Shown here: positions 2,593-40,011 of the stretch, piece after piece
Numbering within the stretch: position 1 is the stretch's first letter
Layout of the letters: each line of letters begins with the position of its first letter
Assembly: GCA_034423775.1 (NCBI GenBank)
Contig: CP139918.1
Span: forward strand, 1,550,001-1,614,000
DNA from: Alphaproteobacteria bacterium US3C007
GTDB lineage: Bacteria > Pseudomonadota > Alphaproteobacteria > Rhodobacterales > Rhodobacteraceae
DNA length: 64,000 nucleotides
Direction of reading: 5' to 3'
The notes under the pieces: model-generated
Told to the model about the DNA's origin: nothing
The model's input: only the letters and a program-made list of their open reading frames with translations
Databases searched by the model: none
Position numbers and translations under genes: made by a program

Positions 2593-2976
2593 ATGCCTAC
2601 TCCAATCATCTGGTTTTTGATGGCGCTCGCTCTGTCGCTGCCGCTATGCGTGTCAAGCAAAGCTGTTGCAGGCGCGCATGCGTTAGAACTGGCTTTGGAG
2701 ACGTGCAATAACACAGAAGCTTTTGCAAAATTTGTTATAGAAAAAAGAAACGGCGCGAGACCTTTTAGCTATTATAACCGCATAGAACTGGGAAGCCCTG
2801 CCGCCTGGGAAATAATCATGGATGCCTATGAAGCACGGGTGGTGACCGGATTTGAAGAAAAGCAAAACCTGGCTTTAGAGTTCTCTCAAAAATGGTTTGA
2901 GCAATGCGTCGCGCTTAGTTGTAGCGGGTTTTGGGAAAATCTTGAGGCTGATTTGCAGCGCGTCTGGAGCGACTAG
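2593..2976 (+). CDS. Small secreted hypothetical protein
   Basis: The 127-residue product begins with a clear signal peptide: MPTPIIWFLMALALSLPLC, then a likely signal peptidase I site near VAGA (about residue 26-28). The mature part is about 100 residues, contains three cysteines (one near the start in LETCNN, two in QCVALSCSG) and ends in an acidic helix. I do not recognise the family. It starts 6 bp after the GFA-type gene and is probably co-transcribed with it. Its end lies 1 bp from the end of the minus-strand small-gene string, so the two units converge. Confidence 0.5.
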   Translation: MPTPIIWFLMALALSLPLCVSSKAVAGAHALELALETCNNTEAFAKFVIEKRNGARPFSYYNRIELGSPAAWEIIMDAYEARVVTGFEEKQNLALEFSQKWFEQCVALSCSGFWENLEADLQRVWSD

Positions 2977-2977
2977 T

Positions 2978-3163
2978 TCATTCGGCTATCTGCTGCTCGC
3001 TTTTCATTCTGATATGGCGGGTTGGAAGATAGGCTTTACTGCTGCCAACGATTTTTAAGTTTTCGTTCGCATCGAGATATTGCTGAAGTTTTTGCTCGCT
3101 TTTAAAGGCCATATCAAAAGCATCGCCGTTTCGTTCATTCAATAGTGTGTAATTCAACATCAT
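2978..3163 (-). CDS. Small hypothetical protein, fourth gene of a microprotein operon
   Basis: I take the start at the double ATG preceded by CAGGAG, giving 61 residues beginning MMLNYTLLNERNG. A longer upstream frame exists but would lie over the preceding gene. This start overlaps the stop of the preceding gene in an ATGA, typical of translational coupling. The product is soluble and charged, with a central segment KLQQYLDANENLKIVGSSKA that looks like a compact alpha/beta protein. It has no cysteines. I do not recognise the family. Context is the only clue: it is the last of four consecutive very small genes on this strand. Confidence 0.55.
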   Translation of the reverse strand: MMLNYTLLNERNGDAFDMAFKSEQKLQQYLDANENLKIVGSSKAYLPTRHIRMKSEQQIAE

Positions 3164-3354
3164 AAATCTCCTGTCTTGGTGGGCGCGTTGACCTCTAACT
3201 CGGCGGTTATTTGGGCTTTTAATAGCATGGCTTTCACCATTTTCTCGGTGCTTGTCAGCGCGCTCCAATCGATGGTATTTGGTGCGCACATTCCGCAATC
3301 GCAAGGCGTTTGATCGCGACCTGAAAACCCACGGAAAGAATCGGTTGGAATCAT
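3160..3354 (-). CDS. Small CxCxxC protein, third gene of a microprotein operon
   Basis: A 64-residue protein starting MIPTDSFRGFSGRDQ and carrying a tight CDCGMC cluster (C18, C20, C23) followed by a hydrophilic helix (LTSTEKMVKAMLLKAQITAE). Three closely spaced cysteines suggest metal binding or a redox-active site. Its ATG directly abuts the TAA of the upstream gene and its TGA overlaps the next start, so it is embedded in a translationally coupled series. I do not recognise a family. With the CDGSH-like first gene of the string, two of the four products are cysteine-rich. Confidence 0.5.
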   Translation of the reverse strand: MIPTDSFRGFSGRDQTPCDCGMCAPNTIDWSALTSTEKMVKAMLLKAQITAELEVNAPTKTGDL

Positions 3355-3555
3355 TTAACCCGCTCTCTCATGCGCTAGGTCCAATTGTAAAAACTGCGCC
3401 AAATATTCTCCGGAGCGTGTCAGTCCATTTGTCTCGTCAAAATAGCCAGATAAACGCCCGTAATGCATCGCTTGCTCTCTGTCTGTATTCTTTGTTTTTT
3501 TAAAACAATGCTGCAGAACCACCTCTGTGCTTTTGATGTTGCTATATGCGTTCAT
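3355..3555 (-). CDS. Small hypothetical protein, second gene of a microprotein operon
   Basis: Start chosen at the ATG preceded by AAGGGAAAT, giving 66 residues beginning MNAYSNIKSTEVVLQHCFKK. An open frame extends upstream over the first gene of the string, but the ribosome-binding site and the short neighbours favour the shorter form. The protein is hydrophilic with one cysteine and a segment MHYGRLSGYFDETNGLTRSG. I do not recognise the family. The stop codon directly abuts the ATG of the next gene. Confidence 0.5.
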   Translation of the reverse strand: MNAYSNIKSTEVVLQHCFKKTKNTDREQAMHYGRLSGYFDETNGLTRSGEYLAQFLQLDLAHERAG

Positions 3556-3592
3556 ACTATTTCCCTTAAGGTTGACGATGCGATTGGTCGGT

Positions 3593-3721
3593 TCAAGCCG
3601 CGTCTTTTTTTGCAGCCTGTTTCGCGTCCCAGGCGGCTTTCTTTTCAAGGTACTGATCTTCATCCAGCTTGTGCCAGCCAACACATTTTCCGGTTGGCGA
3701 ACGACCACAATTGCAACTCAT
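3593..3721 (-). CDS. 42-residue CDGSH-like small protein, first gene of a microprotein operon
   Basis: The frame, too short for routine gene calls, encodes a protein that begins MSCNCGRSPTGKCVGWHKL and ends in a lysine/alanine-rich helix. The pattern C3-x-C5-x2-S8-x4-C13-x-G-x-H17 closely matches the CDGSH iron-sulfur motif (C-x-C-x2-S/T-x3-P-x-C-D-G-S/A/T-H), one residue shorter between the serine and the third cysteine and with valine in place of aspartate. True CDGSH proteins bind a 2Fe-2S cluster through three cysteines and the histidine, all of which have counterparts here. Cluster binding is inferred. The gene precedes the next one by 37 bp and heads the string. Confidence 0.55.
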   Translation of the reverse strand: MSCNCGRSPTGKCVGWHKLDEDQYLEKKAAWDAKQAAKKDAA

Positions 3722-3915
3722 ATTCATCTCCATTTTCTCAGGGCTTAGCTTTGCTCCAAAGCGCGTGTTTTCACCCTCGACCCCTGCTACATCTTACATA
3801 GAATACGCCAGCGATAAGATTTTGGATCATTTATCGCTCTGGCGTTGTGTATCTTAGGCAATCAAATTAAGTTTGCGAAAAACTGGAACTTGAAGCTTTT
3901 ACAAAAGGTGTGACG

Positions 3916-4278
3916 TTGGAAATTAAAGGAAAGATTGTTGAATTATTGCCCTTAAAATCGGGGCAATCGGCCAATGGTGAATGGCGCAAACAAGAATATG
4001 TTTTGGAAACGGACGCTAATTATCCCAAAAAGATTTGCTTTATGGCTTGGGGTGATAAAATTGACCAGTTCAATATTAACAAGGGTGACCAAGTAGAAGT
4101 TTCTATCGATCTTGAAAGCCGGGAATATAATGGCCGTTGGTACACGGATGTGAAAGCCTGGAAAGTATCCAAAGATGGTCAGGGTGCTGACGGTCCGGGA
4201 CGCTTTGACAATCAAGATGCTTACCCTCCAGCGCAATCTGGCAGCGGGTCTTTTGAGGATGATGAAATTCCCTTTTGA
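3916..4278 (+). CDS. DUF3127 protein, OB-fold SSB-like with acidic tail
   Basis: The 120-residue product matches the DUF3127 family: an N-terminal MEIKGKIVELLPL strand, a central KQEYVLETDANYPKKICF segment, and a GDQVEVSIDLESREYNGRW motif, followed by a linker rich in glycine, serine and proline and a final DDEIPF. The fold is expected to be an OB barrel. The tail closely resembles the acidic tip of single-stranded-DNA-binding proteins that recruits partners, so a ssDNA-related role is plausible but unproven. I prefer the TTG start at 3916, because AAAGG lies 7 bp upstream and the family begins with MEI.GKI; a GTG at 3910 is the alternative. The family is best known from Bacteroidetes, so transfer is likely. 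Confidence 0.75.
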   Translation: MEIKGKIVELLPLKSGQSANGEWRKQEYVLETDANYPKKICFMAWGDKIDQFNINKGDQVEVSIDLESREYNGRWYTDVKAWKVSKDGQGADGPGRFDNQDAYPPAQSGSGSFEDDEIPF

Positions 4279-4681: not shown

Positions 4682-4757
<76 letters not shown>

Positions 4758-11483: not shown

Positions 11484-11589
11484 GCGCGTACCTTTGCCAT
11501 TTGCGGTTGCAAGTTTAAAATCCGTTTAGATCTGGCCGCGCGTGTGAAGTAAATGCTTGTTCTGTCACCGTAGCTGGATTATGGTATGT

Positions 11590-11755
11590 TCATCAGAACG
11601 GGAGAACTGGATAAACCAGTGCCGAAGGAGCAACCGCCCCCGGAAACTCTCAGGCAGCAGGACCGCTCTGAACAACAGAACTCTGGAGAGAGATGCGCAA
11701 GCATCGGCCGAAGGGATAGCGATCTCAGGCAAAAGGACAGAGGGGGCATCATGGT
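11590..11755 (+). promoter_or_regulatory. Tandem glycine riboswitch
   Basis: Two glycine aptamers in series. The first (about 11597-11675) has the conserved GCCGAAGGAGCAA core and the GGAAACTCTCAGGCA...GGACCG half. The second (about 11680-11753) has GGCCGAAGGGATAGC and ATCTCAGGCAAAAGGACAG. A short linker joins them. The element lies 80 bp upstream of gcvT and reads in the same direction, the standard place for glycine-activated expression of the glycine cleavage system. No obvious long terminator stem follows, so control may be at translation or through rho. Confidence 0.95.
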
Positions 11756-11836: not shown

Positions 11837-12964
11837 ATGACCGAAGAATTACGGCGCACAGCGCTTTATGACTTACATGTCAGACACGGGGCCAAAATGG
11901 TGCCGTTCGCGGGCTATGAGATGCCCGTGCAATACCCGATGGGGGTGATGCAAGAACATCTTCATACGCGCGGCAAGGCCGGGCTTTTCGATGTCAGCCA
12001 TATGGGGCAGGTGATTTTGCGCGAATCAAGTTACGAGGCCACCGCTATGGCGTTGGAAAAACTGATCCCGATGGATGTGCTGGGCTTGCCTGTGGGGCGG
12101 CAGCGATACGGGCTGTTGACCAATGAGGAAGGTGGTCTGCGCGATGATTTGATGTTCGCGAATCGCGAGGATCACATTTACATGGTGGTCAATGCGGGCT
12201 GCAAAGAGGCCGATATTGCCTATATGCGCCAGCATCTTGAGCCGGAGGTCACGCTTAAAGAATTATCCAACCGGGCTTTGCTTGCCTTGCAGGGCCCGTT
12301 GGCGCAGGCGGTTTTGGCCGAGCATCACCCTGCTTTTGCGTTGATGGCTTTTATGGATGTGGCAACCTTGCCCTTGGCGGGCGCTGAATGCTGGGTATCG
12401 CGCTCTGGCTATACCGGTGAGGATGGGTTTGAAATTTCTGTGCCAGAAAGCGCGGTTCACGATGTGGCAAATGCGCTGTTGGACAATCGCGATGTTGCGC
12501 TGATCGGTCTTGGCGCACGCGACTCGCTGCGCCTTGAAGCCGGGCTTTGTTTATACGGGCAAGATATCGATGCACAAACCAGTCCGGTTGAGGCGTCGTT
12601 GGGCTGGGCGGTTCAAAAGGTCCGCCGCTCTGGCGGTGCCCGCGCGGGCGGTTTTCCAGGCGCAGCGCGTATTTTGGCCGAATTTCCACAGGCCATCGTG
12701 CGCAAACGCGTGGGCTTGAAACCGCAGGGCCGGGCGCCGATGCGCCATGGCGTGGCGCTCTATGACAGCGCTGAAGGCGGCGCGGCGCTCGGCGAAATCA
12801 GCTCGGGCGGGTTTGCGCCAAGCCTCAATCACCCGGTGGCGATGGGCTATGTGCCCGTTACCCATGCCGCGGTTGGAACGCTTTTATACGGTGAGATGCG
12901 CGGCAAACGATTGCCGATTGAAGTTGTGGACCTGCCATTTGTGGCTGCCAATTTTAAACGATAA
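11837..12964 (+). CDS. gcvT: Glycine cleavage system T protein (aminomethyltransferase)
   Basis: 375 residues, full length. The T protein takes the aminomethyl group from lipoylated H protein, releases ammonia and passes the one-carbon unit to tetrahydrofolate as 5,10-methylene-THF. The N-terminal LYDLHVRHGAKMVPFAGYEM and the VSHMGQ segment are typical, as are SRSGYTGEDGFEI (folate site) and the RDSLRLEAGLCLYG motif. First gene of gcvT-gcvH-gcvP, with 19 bp to gcvH, controlled by the glycine riboswitch upstream. Confidence 0.97.
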   Translation: MTEELRRTALYDLHVRHGAKMVPFAGYEMPVQYPMGVMQEHLHTRGKAGLFDVSHMGQVILRESSYEATAMALEKLIPMDVLGLPVGRQRYGLLTNEEGGLRDDLMFANREDHIYMVVNAGCKEADIAYMRQHLEPEVTLKELSNRALLALQGPLAQAVLAEHHPAFALMAFMDVATLPLAGAECWVSRSGYTGEDGFEISVPESAVHDVANALLDNRDVALIGLGARDSLRLEAGLCLYGQDIDAQTSPVEASLGWAVQKVRRSGGARAGGFPGAARILAEFPQAIVRKRVGLKPQGRAPMRHGVALYDSAEGGAALGEISSGGFAPSLNHPVAMGYVPVTHAAVGTLLYGEMRGKRLPIEVVDLPFVAANFKR

Positions 12965-37822: not shown

Positions 37823-39352
37823 TTAAACATGGTCCCCTTTGCGCAGGCGCGTTAAAAAGCCTGCGGCATCGCTGAGCACGGTTTCTTTGCGCGTCTCATC
37901 CATGCGTGCCCATGTGCGGTACATTTGTGCCATCCGAGGGTTCTTGGCAAACTTTTCCTCGTTCCGCAGAAGAAAATCCCAATATAACAGGTTAAACGGG
38001 CAGGCGGATTCGCCAGTTTTTTGCGCGACCTTATACGCGCATGTCTTGCAATAATCTGACATGCGATTGATATAGGCGCCCGAGCTGACATAAGGTTTTG
38101 AAGCGATAATGCCGGCATCTGCAAACTGGCTCATTCCGATCGTATTGGGCGCCTCGACCCATTCAAACGCATCTACATAAACCGCAAGATACCATTCATG
38201 GACCGCGTGCGGATCAATGCCAGCCAAAAGCGCAAAATTGCCAGTCACCATCAGGCGTTGAATATGATGCGCGTAGCCTTCGCTGTGAGTTTGAGCAACT
38301 GCTTTTGAAAGGCAATTCATTTTTGTTGCGCCGTCCCAGTAAAACTTGGGCAATGGGTGAGAATGGTTCAAGGCATTGCGCGTCGTATAATCTGGCCCTT
38401 CATGAAAATAGATCCCGCGCATATATTCGCGCCACCCTATGATCTGGCGAATGAACCCTTCAACGGCGTTTAACGGCGCCAAACCCGCCTGCCAGGCGGC
38501 TTCAGCCGCCTGGCACACCTCTATCGGGCTCAGCAATCCAATATTCAAATAAGGCGATAAAAACGCGTGATATAAGAATTTATTGTCGTTCAGCATCGCG
38601 TCCTGATAATCGCCAAAACTTACCAAAGCATCGTGAATAAAGCGATCCAATGCTTGCAAGGCCTGGCTGCGATCTGTGGCAAACCAAAACCCCTCGGTGG
38701 TTCCAAAATGGCCTGAAAAGCGCCGGTCTACCAGATCGATTACCTGCTGCGTAAGCGCATCGGGTTCGAATTTTTTAGGCCCGGCATAGGTGATGTCTTT
38801 CGGCGCTGCTTTGCGGTTGTCATGGTCGAAATTCCATTTGCCGCCCGCTGGCAGCCCTTCTTCCATTAAAAAACCGGTTTTGCGGCGCATATCGCGGTAA
38901 AAATATTCCATCCGCAGGGCTTTGCGCCCTTCTGCCCAGCGATCAAACTCAGCATGGCTGGCGATAAAGCGATCATCCTGCAGCAGGGTCACATGCAAGG
39001 GCAGCGCCTCAAAGGCTTGGATAACCCGCCATTCAGCGGGTTCGGTCACAACCACTTGATCCGTGCCAGCCAAAGCGGCTTGGCGCAAAACCTCGCCGCT
39101 CAGGCTGCCGCTATTTTGGGCATCCTCCAGTTGCGTATACGCAACGTGCCAACCCTCTTGCCTGAGTTGCGTCGCAAATTTGCGCATTGCGGCCAAGATC
39201 AGCACAATCTTTTTAGGATGATGCGGCACGTAACCGGTTTCATCACTGACTTCGGCCATCACGATTAAATCGTTGGCTTTATCCGCTTGCTTTAGGGCCG
39301 CAAGATTATGCGAAAGCTGATCGCCCAGAATAACAACGAGCTTTTTCACCAT
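37823..39352 (-). CDS. Iron-sulfur bacterial cryptochrome/photolyase (FeS-BCP, (6-4) photolyase type)
   Basis: 509 residues, the size of PhrB/CryB proteins. The four cysteines expected to hold a 4Fe-4S cluster are visible: one in KMNCLSKAV, two in YCKTCAYK, one in SACPFN. The FAD domain shows WREYMRGIYFHEGPDY and NTIGMSQFADAGIIASKPYV; the N-terminal domain (LVVILGDQLSHNL) is the antenna-chromophore domain, lumazine in known members. Members repair (6-4) photoproducts or regulate photosynthesis genes. The start overlaps the stop of the SDR gene by 7 bp. Confidence 0.92.
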   Translation of the reverse strand: MVKKLVVILGDQLSHNLAALKQADKANDLIVMAEVSDETGYVPHHPKKIVLILAAMRKFATQLRQEGWHVAYTQLEDAQNSGSLSGEVLRQAALAGTDQVVVTEPAEWRVIQAFEALPLHVTLLQDDRFIASHAEFDRWAEGRKALRMEYFYRDMRRKTGFLMEEGLPAGGKWNFDHDNRKAAPKDITYAGPKKFEPDALTQQVIDLVDRRFSGHFGTTEGFWFATDRSQALQALDRFIHDALVSFGDYQDAMLNDNKFLYHAFLSPYLNIGLLSPIEVCQAAEAAWQAGLAPLNAVEGFIRQIIGWREYMRGIYFHEGPDYTTRNALNHSHPLPKFYWDGATKMNCLSKAVAQTHSEGYAHHIQRLMVTGNFALLAGIDPHAVHEWYLAVYVDAFEWVEAPNTIGMSQFADAGIIASKPYVSSGAYINRMSDYCKTCAYKVAQKTGESACPFNLLYWDFLLRNEEKFAKNPRMAQMYRTWARMDETRKETVLSDAAGFLTRLRKGDHV

Positions 39353-40011
39353 GGCACTGGTTTTCCTGCCCAGTCAAAAAACTGGCCTGTTTTATCGGGG
39401 CCAAGACCCTCAAGTACGGATAAGAGGTTAAGAGCGGCTTGGGCTGCAGGAACCGAAGGATGCCGGCCTAGATATTTGGCGGTGAAGGGCGTTTGCACTG
39501 TGCCTGGATGCAGGGCGACACAAACTGCCTGTTTATGCGTTCGGGCCAACTCGATGGCGCCGGTATGGATGATTTGGTTTAATGCGGCTTTTGCCGCGCG
39601 ATAGGAATACCATCCGCCGATTTTATTATCCCCGATCGATCCAACCCTTGCGGATAAGGCCGCAAACTGGCTTGGGCGGTCTTTTGGCAACAGGCGTGGT
39701 GCGTGTTTCAAAATCAATGCAGGGCCAGCGGCGTTCACTATAAACTGTTCGACAAGCGCCGATTGAGTCAGCTGAGATAAGGCTTTTTCGGGGCGTGCGC
39801 CGTTTATTTCCAAAGCACCACTGGCCACGAGAATTGCGTCAAAGGGCCCGCTTAGGGCGGATAACTGCCCCTCTATGCTTGCCTCATCGCTCAGATCTAA
39901 GCCGGTATCTCGCCGGGACAGGCCCGTAACCTTTGCTCCGCGCGCTTCTAGCGTGCCTTGCAGCGCATGGCCTATACCGCCGCTATTTCCAATTAAAAGT
40001 ATCGATTTCAT
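39346..40011 (-). CDS. Short-chain dehydrogenase/reductase (CsgA-like)
   Basis: 221 residues, short SDR. The cofactor loop is IGNSGGIGHAL and the catalytic YSYRAAK (Tyr-x3-Lys) with an upstream serine in ALSARVGSIG. Size and C-terminal HPGTVQTPFTAKYLG resemble the C-factor group found beside photolyase genes in roseobacters. Substrate unknown. Translationally linked to the photolyase by a 7-bp overlap, which suggests a shared function or light-linked expression. Confidence 0.88.
   Translation of the reverse strand: MKSILLIGNSGGIGHALQGTLEARGAKVTGLSRRDTGLDLSDEASIEGQLSALSGPFDAILVASGALEINGARPEKALSQLTQSALVEQFIVNAAGPALILKHAPRLLPKDRPSQFAALSARVGSIGDNKIGGWYSYRAAKAALNQIIHTGAIELARTHKQAVCVALHPGTVQTPFTAKYLGRHPSVPAAQAALNLLSVLEGLGPDKTGQFFDWAGKPVPW

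Follow-up and report, generated by a model that had tools for sequence, protein, structure and literature searches.

The window, the 64,000-nt stretch of DNA analysed here (contig CP139918.1), contains a string of four microprotein genes that on balance appear to form an operon belonging to the photooxidative-stress regulon of RpoE (sigma-E) and ChrR. The four tiny proteins are probably part of bacterial light-stress defence. The host genome (G000 below) is a single contig of 3.62 Mb. The string and its surroundings are laid out as follows:

3593-3721, minus strand: ORF1, 42 aa, CxCGRSPTGKCVGWH family
3355-3555, minus strand: ORF2, 66 aa; its family has genus paralogs, of which some follow sigma-E-type sites of their own
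3160-3354, minus strand: ORF3, 64 aa, CDCGMC...DWS, probable diverged ORF1 paralog
2978-3163, minus strand: ORF4, 61 aa (60 if started at the second ATG); seen in close relatives only
3804-3829, minus strand: putative sigma-E (RpoE/ChrR)-type promoter TGATCCAAAATCTTATCGCTGGCGTA, by sequence match
3910-4278, plus strand: DUF3127 gene, divergent to ORF1 (Pfam E 6e-36)
4682-4757: tRNA-Ala

The first-pass annotation had described four consecutive minus-strand ORFs (42, 66, 64, and 61 aa) joined throughout by abutting or overlapping start and stop codons, and had suggested that this compact string could be a small operon. The four ORFs and the operon reading are borne out, as are two of the junctions: the TAA of ORF2 directly abuts the ATG of ORF3, and ORF3 and ORF4 share a 4-nt ATGA overlap. 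The coupling does not extend to ORF1 and ORF2, which neither abut nor overlap but are separated by 37 nt. The near-CDGSH pattern CNCGRSPTGKCVGWH in ORF1 and the CDCGMC cluster in ORF3 are both present. The neighbour called SSB-like is the DUF3127 gene, which also has a PHROG match, to a family of single-strand DNA binding proteins (E 4e-20). Past the other end of the string, a 127-aa ORF (2593-2976, plus strand; phrog_2315, E 1e-6) is convergent with ORF4, the two stop codons lying one base apart. Elsewhere in the window we noted a glycine riboswitch (11589-11675, plus strand) upstream of an ORF at 11837 that by eye is glycine-cleavage T-like, and a gene for a photolyase-related protein (37823-39352, minus strand; DPRP, Pfam) adjoining a gene at 39346-40011 that by eye is SDR-like.

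The four ORFs are real genes under purifying selection. The sister genome G002 aligns to the window with 91% nt identity over 8.3 kb, and we reached this conclusion because the four frames are kept gapless in that alignment with dN/dS values (Nei-Gojobori, own script) of 0.07 for ORF1 (41 codons, the G002 stop codon being omitted), 0.19 for ORF2, 0.15 for ORF3, and 0.11 for ORF4. The corresponding values for neighbouring genes are 0.02 (accA), 0.07 (DUF3127), 0.12 (the 127-aa ORF), 0.14 (GFA gene), and 0.45 (FYDLN gene). Relatives of ORF1 and ORF3 in other genomes also show mainly synonymous differences, with ratios of 0.07-0.24 where computable. The alternative that the ORFs are spurious or decaying could draw on an in-frame TAG after 22 codons of ORF1 in G002 and on the four having no Pfam or NCBIfam match; it is already contradicted by the low ratios, here and in the relatives, and by the absence of indels, and we regard it as extremely improbable. 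The earlier claim that these are real genes is upheld, the TAG in G002 being the exception. Its description of the surroundings as decayed accessory DNA is right as to accessory (strong ORF3 and ORF4 matches were found only in G000 and G002 among 41 genomes), but decay is seen only in the ORF1 of G002.

We next compared loci of the ORF1 family. Among species genomes, ORF1 relatives are encoded in 116 of 293 pattern stretches, from which 80 bacterial loci were kept for further comparison. The recurring core of the operon is ORF1 plus ORF3: in seven of the 80 other genome loci (L077, L078, L086, L089, L093, L102, and L104) an ORF1 relative is followed immediately by an ORF3 relative, the two genes spaced by 1-2 nt in six of them and overlapping by 4 nt in L104, whose neighbours differ by eye from those of the other pair loci. 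L091 carries an ORF1 of the ORF1-ORF3 branch without ORF3. The suggestion that all four genes might be repeated neighbours elsewhere is correct for this pair; the full four occur only in G000 and G002. ORF3 is most simply explained as a diverged duplicate of ORF1, because the ORF3 profile reaches intermediate, divergent ORF1 paralogs (among ORFs gathered for this analysis, E 2.8e-5 to 2.6e-4); a direct comparison of the two family profiles is weak (P 0.029). ORF2 belongs to a separate family with paralogs in all three genus genomes (G000, G001, and G002), and a wHTH-type Pfam model is weakly matched by five of 12 family members (best E 0.033). An ORF upstream of the paralog in L012 was considered as an ORF2 relative and rejected (score 5.1). 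ORF4 is matched weakly by the T4 goF family of PHROG (best E 0.002; three of six close members match).

The putative promoter before ORF1 is exactly TGATCC(N15)GCGTA, with 82 nt between the end of the site and the ORF1 ATG. The same sequence is given as the RpoE promoter of Rhodobacter sphaeroides in the study of Pos19 (PMC5036791). There is only one exact TGATCC-N16-CGTA in the 64-kb window, and the exact site precedes ORF1 in G002 as well. Sites of at least 9/10 were found at all seven ORF1-ORF3 loci elsewhere (six exact, the seventh 9/10), a count that is not independent of discovery, the motif (TGATC[CT]-N16-CGTA) having first been spotted by eye in ORF1-ORF3 upstreams. The promoter scan covered 75 of the 80 bacterial loci, the ORF1 gene of the other five not being recognised by the motif search. 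Best scores were 9 or more at 11 loci (six exact, five with one mismatch), 8 at none, and 7 or less at 64, which have no such site; all six exact sites belong to ORF1-ORF3 loci. The 64 loci speak against the sigma-E reading, as do 17 of the 80 with a LysR gene within 3.5 kb instead. Letter-shuffled upstreams reached at least 9/10 in 0.24%.

Because the motif was found in these upstreams, independent tests of the promoter weigh more. Support of this kind comes from the published RpoE promoter, rpoE, rpoH, the paralogs, and the loci L308 and L309. In each of the three genus genomes, one ORF1 paralog lies behind an exact site at -109; the other two copies of ORF1 in G000 score 7 and 6 of 10. Among the genus paralogs of ORF2 the scores are 10 (L035), 9 (L038), 8 (L034 and L036), 7 (L037), and 6 (L039), and exact sites also precede the ORF2 relatives in L281, L308, and L309. 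In whole genomes the pattern occurs 15 times in G000, 10 times in G001, and 15 times in G002, against 0, 1, and 2 occurrences of the backwards control. Since base counting expects ∼7 in G000, several of its 15 sites are probably chance hits. Plausible targets lie behind eight of the 15 sites (rpoE, rpoH, a DUF2177 gene, ORF1, the ORF1 paralog, the ORF2-family gene of L281, a 56-aa ORF, and folE2). G001 and G002 both share six of the eight; the ORF1 site recurs in G002 only and the L281 site in neither. Both genomes also keep a ninth G000 site, located 230 nt ahead of a small lipoprotein-like ORF. Exact sites are found in all three genomes before rpoE (first ATG 15 nt after the site), before a gene encoding a sigma factor of the rpoH type (above the cut-off of NF005693), and upstream of the DUF2177 gene, and rpoE of G000 is followed by a gene for a ChrR-family anti-sigma factor (TIGR02451, E 3e-62, above cut-off). 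We consider sigma-E control of the four-ORF operon very likely. Membership in the RpoE/ChrR (ECF11) regulon rests on sequence: the promoter upstream, RpoE-ChrR encoded behind the same site, and the site kept at the operons of relatives. An RNA hairpin over the promoter was tried as a candidate and rejected (z -1.18; by eye not intact in G002).

As judged from its sequence, ORF1 is CDGSH-like and not a member of the CDGSH family. Over 94 sequences, C3, C5, G6, R7, C13, G15, W16, and H17 are invariant or at least 90% conserved, a result partly biased by the use of PTG[KN]C[VI]GW as one search pattern; the ORF1 paralog in L013 has Gly in place of His. In a comparison with 48 CDGSH segments drawn from relatives and neighbour genes, the ORF1 profile scored 21.6 (P 3.6e-4, with HHalign's own probability only 37%) and recovered the register of the CDGSH-like motif noted earlier, pairing CxCGRS with CxCGxS and CxGWH with CDGSH. 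None of 60 column shuffles reached this score (best 16.5). Against first-motif segments the score was 22.2 (P 3.4e-4), and against second-motif segments 13.7. ORF1 shares with CDGSH domains (PF09360) the ligand types and their order, CxC...C...H with three Cys and one His, as an order only. The CDGSH consensus as given in PMC3174974 has 17 residues with P11, D14, and S/T/A16; the ORF1 loop is one residue shorter and all three positions are replaced. Few residues precede CxC in the aligned family rows shown, which leaves no room for the N-terminal strand, and the P motif and beta-sandwich dimer were likewise not recognised in these rows or in the AF2 monomer. That model of ORF1 is a loop plus one long helix (residues 21-41; mean pLDDT 85.7), and Pfam zf-CDGSH matched 0 of the 94 members. 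CDGSH membership was rejected because these defining residues and fold parts are absent. A Foldseek search with the ORF1 model gave no match in PDB, and its best rows in BFVD are uncharacterised uncultured-phage proteins. ORF3, for which the AF2 model is poor (pLDDT 58.6), has CxCxxC and is without the His and the third Cys position of ORF1. Also rejected for ORF1 were a SEC-C zinc motif (score 12.3, where CDGSH gave 21.6 and the best shuffle 16.5) and a P-loop/Walker A reading of GRSPTGK as GxxxxGK (the Lys is not invariant, Asn standing in 19 of 172 motif rows, in a protein of 42 aa). A resemblance to DAHP synthase, seen when PDB sequences were searched (E no better than 1.7), was taken as chance. 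ORF1 and ORF3 both carry short motifs that look metal-binding, and the earlier suggestion that the two bind metal is plausible. We take metal binding as fairly probable; a direct protective redox role is conceivable, at somewhat less than an even chance.

The distribution of the ORF1 family is patchy, because in an even draw it was found in only eight of 295 genomes of the window's family, its own genome included. The ORF1 search of 61 genomes gave three matches at E ≤ 0.01, all in the same genus. In searches of 41 genomes at E ≤ 0.1, ORF2 matched three (all genus members, with paralogs), ORF3 matched 10 (strongly in G000 and G002; one of the other eight, weak matches is a hit on an ORF1 paralog), and ORF4 matched four (strongly in the same two). 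Protein relatives of ORF1 at E ≤ 0.01 number 54, its own cluster included; eight proteins of a large database match ORF2 and seven match ORF4, their own clusters being probably among both counts. Four ORF1 copies were found in G000 with E ≤ 1e-5, and one further match had E 0.4. By label, marine Rhodobacterales make up most of the 80 kept bacterial loci, joined by SAR116, SAR86, SAR92, and further Pseudomonadota. Two loci labelled Flavobacteriia may be misbinned. In IMG/VR, ORF1 relatives are encoded in 383 of 454 matched viral-contig stretches, of which 80 were kept. The viral scans gave no relative of ORF3 or ORF4; cultured phages and plasmids gave no ORF1 match at E ≤ 1, and a viral ORF1 relative used as query against phages gave only four hits (E 4 to 7). 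As the first-pass annotation had it, no function can be named for the four: the window proteins have no family match in Pfam or NCBIfam, and the 94 ORF1-family members have none in Pfam (best E 0.025) and a best E of 0.003 in PHROG. A full-text search of the open-licence PMC library found no paper with the string CGRSPTGKC.

The neighbours of ORF1 relatives hint at a redox or light-stress theme, which is not the window's own context and is of minor support. Within 3.5 kb of the 80 bacterial loci we counted LysR at 17, GS-hydroquinone reductase (our own reading of a GST-domain protein) at 10, DoxX at nine, CDGSH-glutamate synthase at nine, DCC1-like at seven, cytochrome b561 at six, pirin at five, and YceI at three. 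These counts are by blastp to representatives picked from the same loci after looking, among related species that are not independent and contigs that are often cut. GS-hydroquinone reductase, DoxX, pirin, cytochrome b561, CDGSH-glutamate synthase, or YceI occurs at 22 of the 80. Within ±1.5 kb, and against a small control of 29 loci of convenience, LysR (18/80 vs. 0/29, one-sided P 0.002) and DoxX (10/80 vs. 0/29, P 0.04) are enriched; the other six families do not differ from the control loci. At viral ORF1 loci, FolE and QueE each lie within 3.5 kb in 33 of 80 (31 and 35 by clustering).

In Rhodobacter, the loss of the anti-sigma factor ChrR upon singlet oxygen or peroxide is described as established (PMC6852236, PMC10673084). 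By the preferred reading, either trigger would remove ChrR here too, and the freed RpoE would transcribe the operon from TGATCC-N15-GCGTA at 3829-3804. ORF1 and its probable paralog ORF3, the recurring pair, would be made together. We infer the biochemistry of the products: the compact Cys3/Cys5/Cys13/His17 site of ORF1 may bind Zn2+ or a [2Fe-2S] cluster and let ORF1 act as a small redox or thiol module, with ORF3 as a possible partner with an altered CxCxxC site. ORF2 would be a second, partly sigma-E-driven family taken into the operon, as the sites observed before its relatives suggest, and ORF4 may be a recent addition because its distribution is narrow. A bolder extension, which we think rather unlikely, is that ORF1 is the founding member of a nameless class of CDGSH-like redox microproteins, ∼40 residues long and binding a metal or a [2Fe-2S] cluster, that act against photooxidative stress in marine bacteria, were duplicated into ORF1-ORF3, and were adopted by large tailed phages (T4-like by our own reading) beside FolE/QueE to protect or supply metal enzymes in infection.

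The operon could belong to the same regulon and still make proteins that serve as adaptors or regulators and bind no more than a structural zinc, like the DUF1127 proteins of Rhodobacter. The modelled loop and helix of ORF1 has no enzyme-like features, some ORF2-family members give weak wHTH-type matches, and a 70-aa DUF1127 protein of R. sphaeroides is described as controlled by RpoH factors and RpoE (PMC10673084). Yet the near-invariant CxCGRS...CxGWH core resembles a site, and redox enzymes adjoin some ORF1 relatives; we hold adaptors less likely than redox modules, but a real minority possibility. That the string is instead phage-derived cargo, left as a moron or as the remnant of a prophage next to a tRNA gene, is improbable. 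The tRNA-Ala, the adjoining SSB-like and phrog_2315-like genes, the many viral stretches with the ORF1 family, and ORF2 relatives present as single divergent genes on two prophage-like contigs all point that way. Against it, visual inspection of the ORF lists around the string turned up no recognisable integrase or virion gene, ORF3 and ORF4 have no relatives in the viral scans, and by eye the ORF1-ORF3 pair stands among ordinary chromosomal genes in seven other genomes.

The closest known counterpart of a light-stress operon under sigma-E is the RpoE-ChrR (ECF11) singlet-oxygen regulon of R. sphaeroides with its coding sRNA Pos19, where the same TGATCC(N15)GCGTA is described before a small ORF (PMC5036791). 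G000 likewise encodes RpoE-ChrR and rpoH behind this site, but there are four genes here, of other families, and their control is predicted from the promoter sequence; that study reports Pos19 only from R. sphaeroides strains. The DUF1127 proteins of the Rhodobacter stress response are also described as small and under alternative sigma factors (PMC10673084); ORF1-ORF4 differ in having no Pfam match. Some ORF1 relatives adjoin LysR, DoxX, GS-hydroquinone reductase-like, and pirin genes, a context absent from this window. Of the Escherichia coli proteins YqjF and YqjG, we take the former to be of the DoxX type and the latter to be a GS-hydroquinone reductase. The setting of these ORF1 relatives resembles the YhaJ-controlled genes of E. 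coli, which include yqjF and yhaK and are described in connection with quinol-like compounds (PMC5031710). Beyond the earlier annotation, the analysis adds ORF3 as probable ORF1 paralog, the RpoE/ChrR-type promoter, the bacterial and viral family of ORF1, and the stop codon in the sister's ORF1. Protein families that lack a name and an assigned function are given a testable trigger (singlet oxygen via RpoE/ChrR), one of them linked also to uncultivated viruses. A multi-gene microprotein operon would be added to the extended sigma-E regulon, in which the large number of functionally uncharacterised genes is described as an acknowledged gap (PMC6852236).

Some further sites and loci were noted. 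On each of two prophage-like contigs, a lone divergent gene of the ORF2 family (L308:2730-2921 and L309:3001-3192) has an exact site at -52 and resembles a stress-driven moron. In all three genomes of the genus, TGATCC-N16-CGTA lies shortly before a gene for a GTP cyclohydrolase of the folE2 type (L263:341-1447, site at G000:C1:84847; L283; L302), which may be set beside the frequent proximity of viral ORF1 relatives to FolE. The 56-aa ORF (L282:779-949, site at G000:C1:752554) has no Pfam match, lies ∼200 nt behind its sigma-E-type site, and is kept in three genomes. ORF1 relatives in L050 and L051 have a 9/10 sigma-E-type site; photolyase, SDR, and SOUL genes are nearby in L051 (Pfam), and similar genes, by clustering only, in L050.
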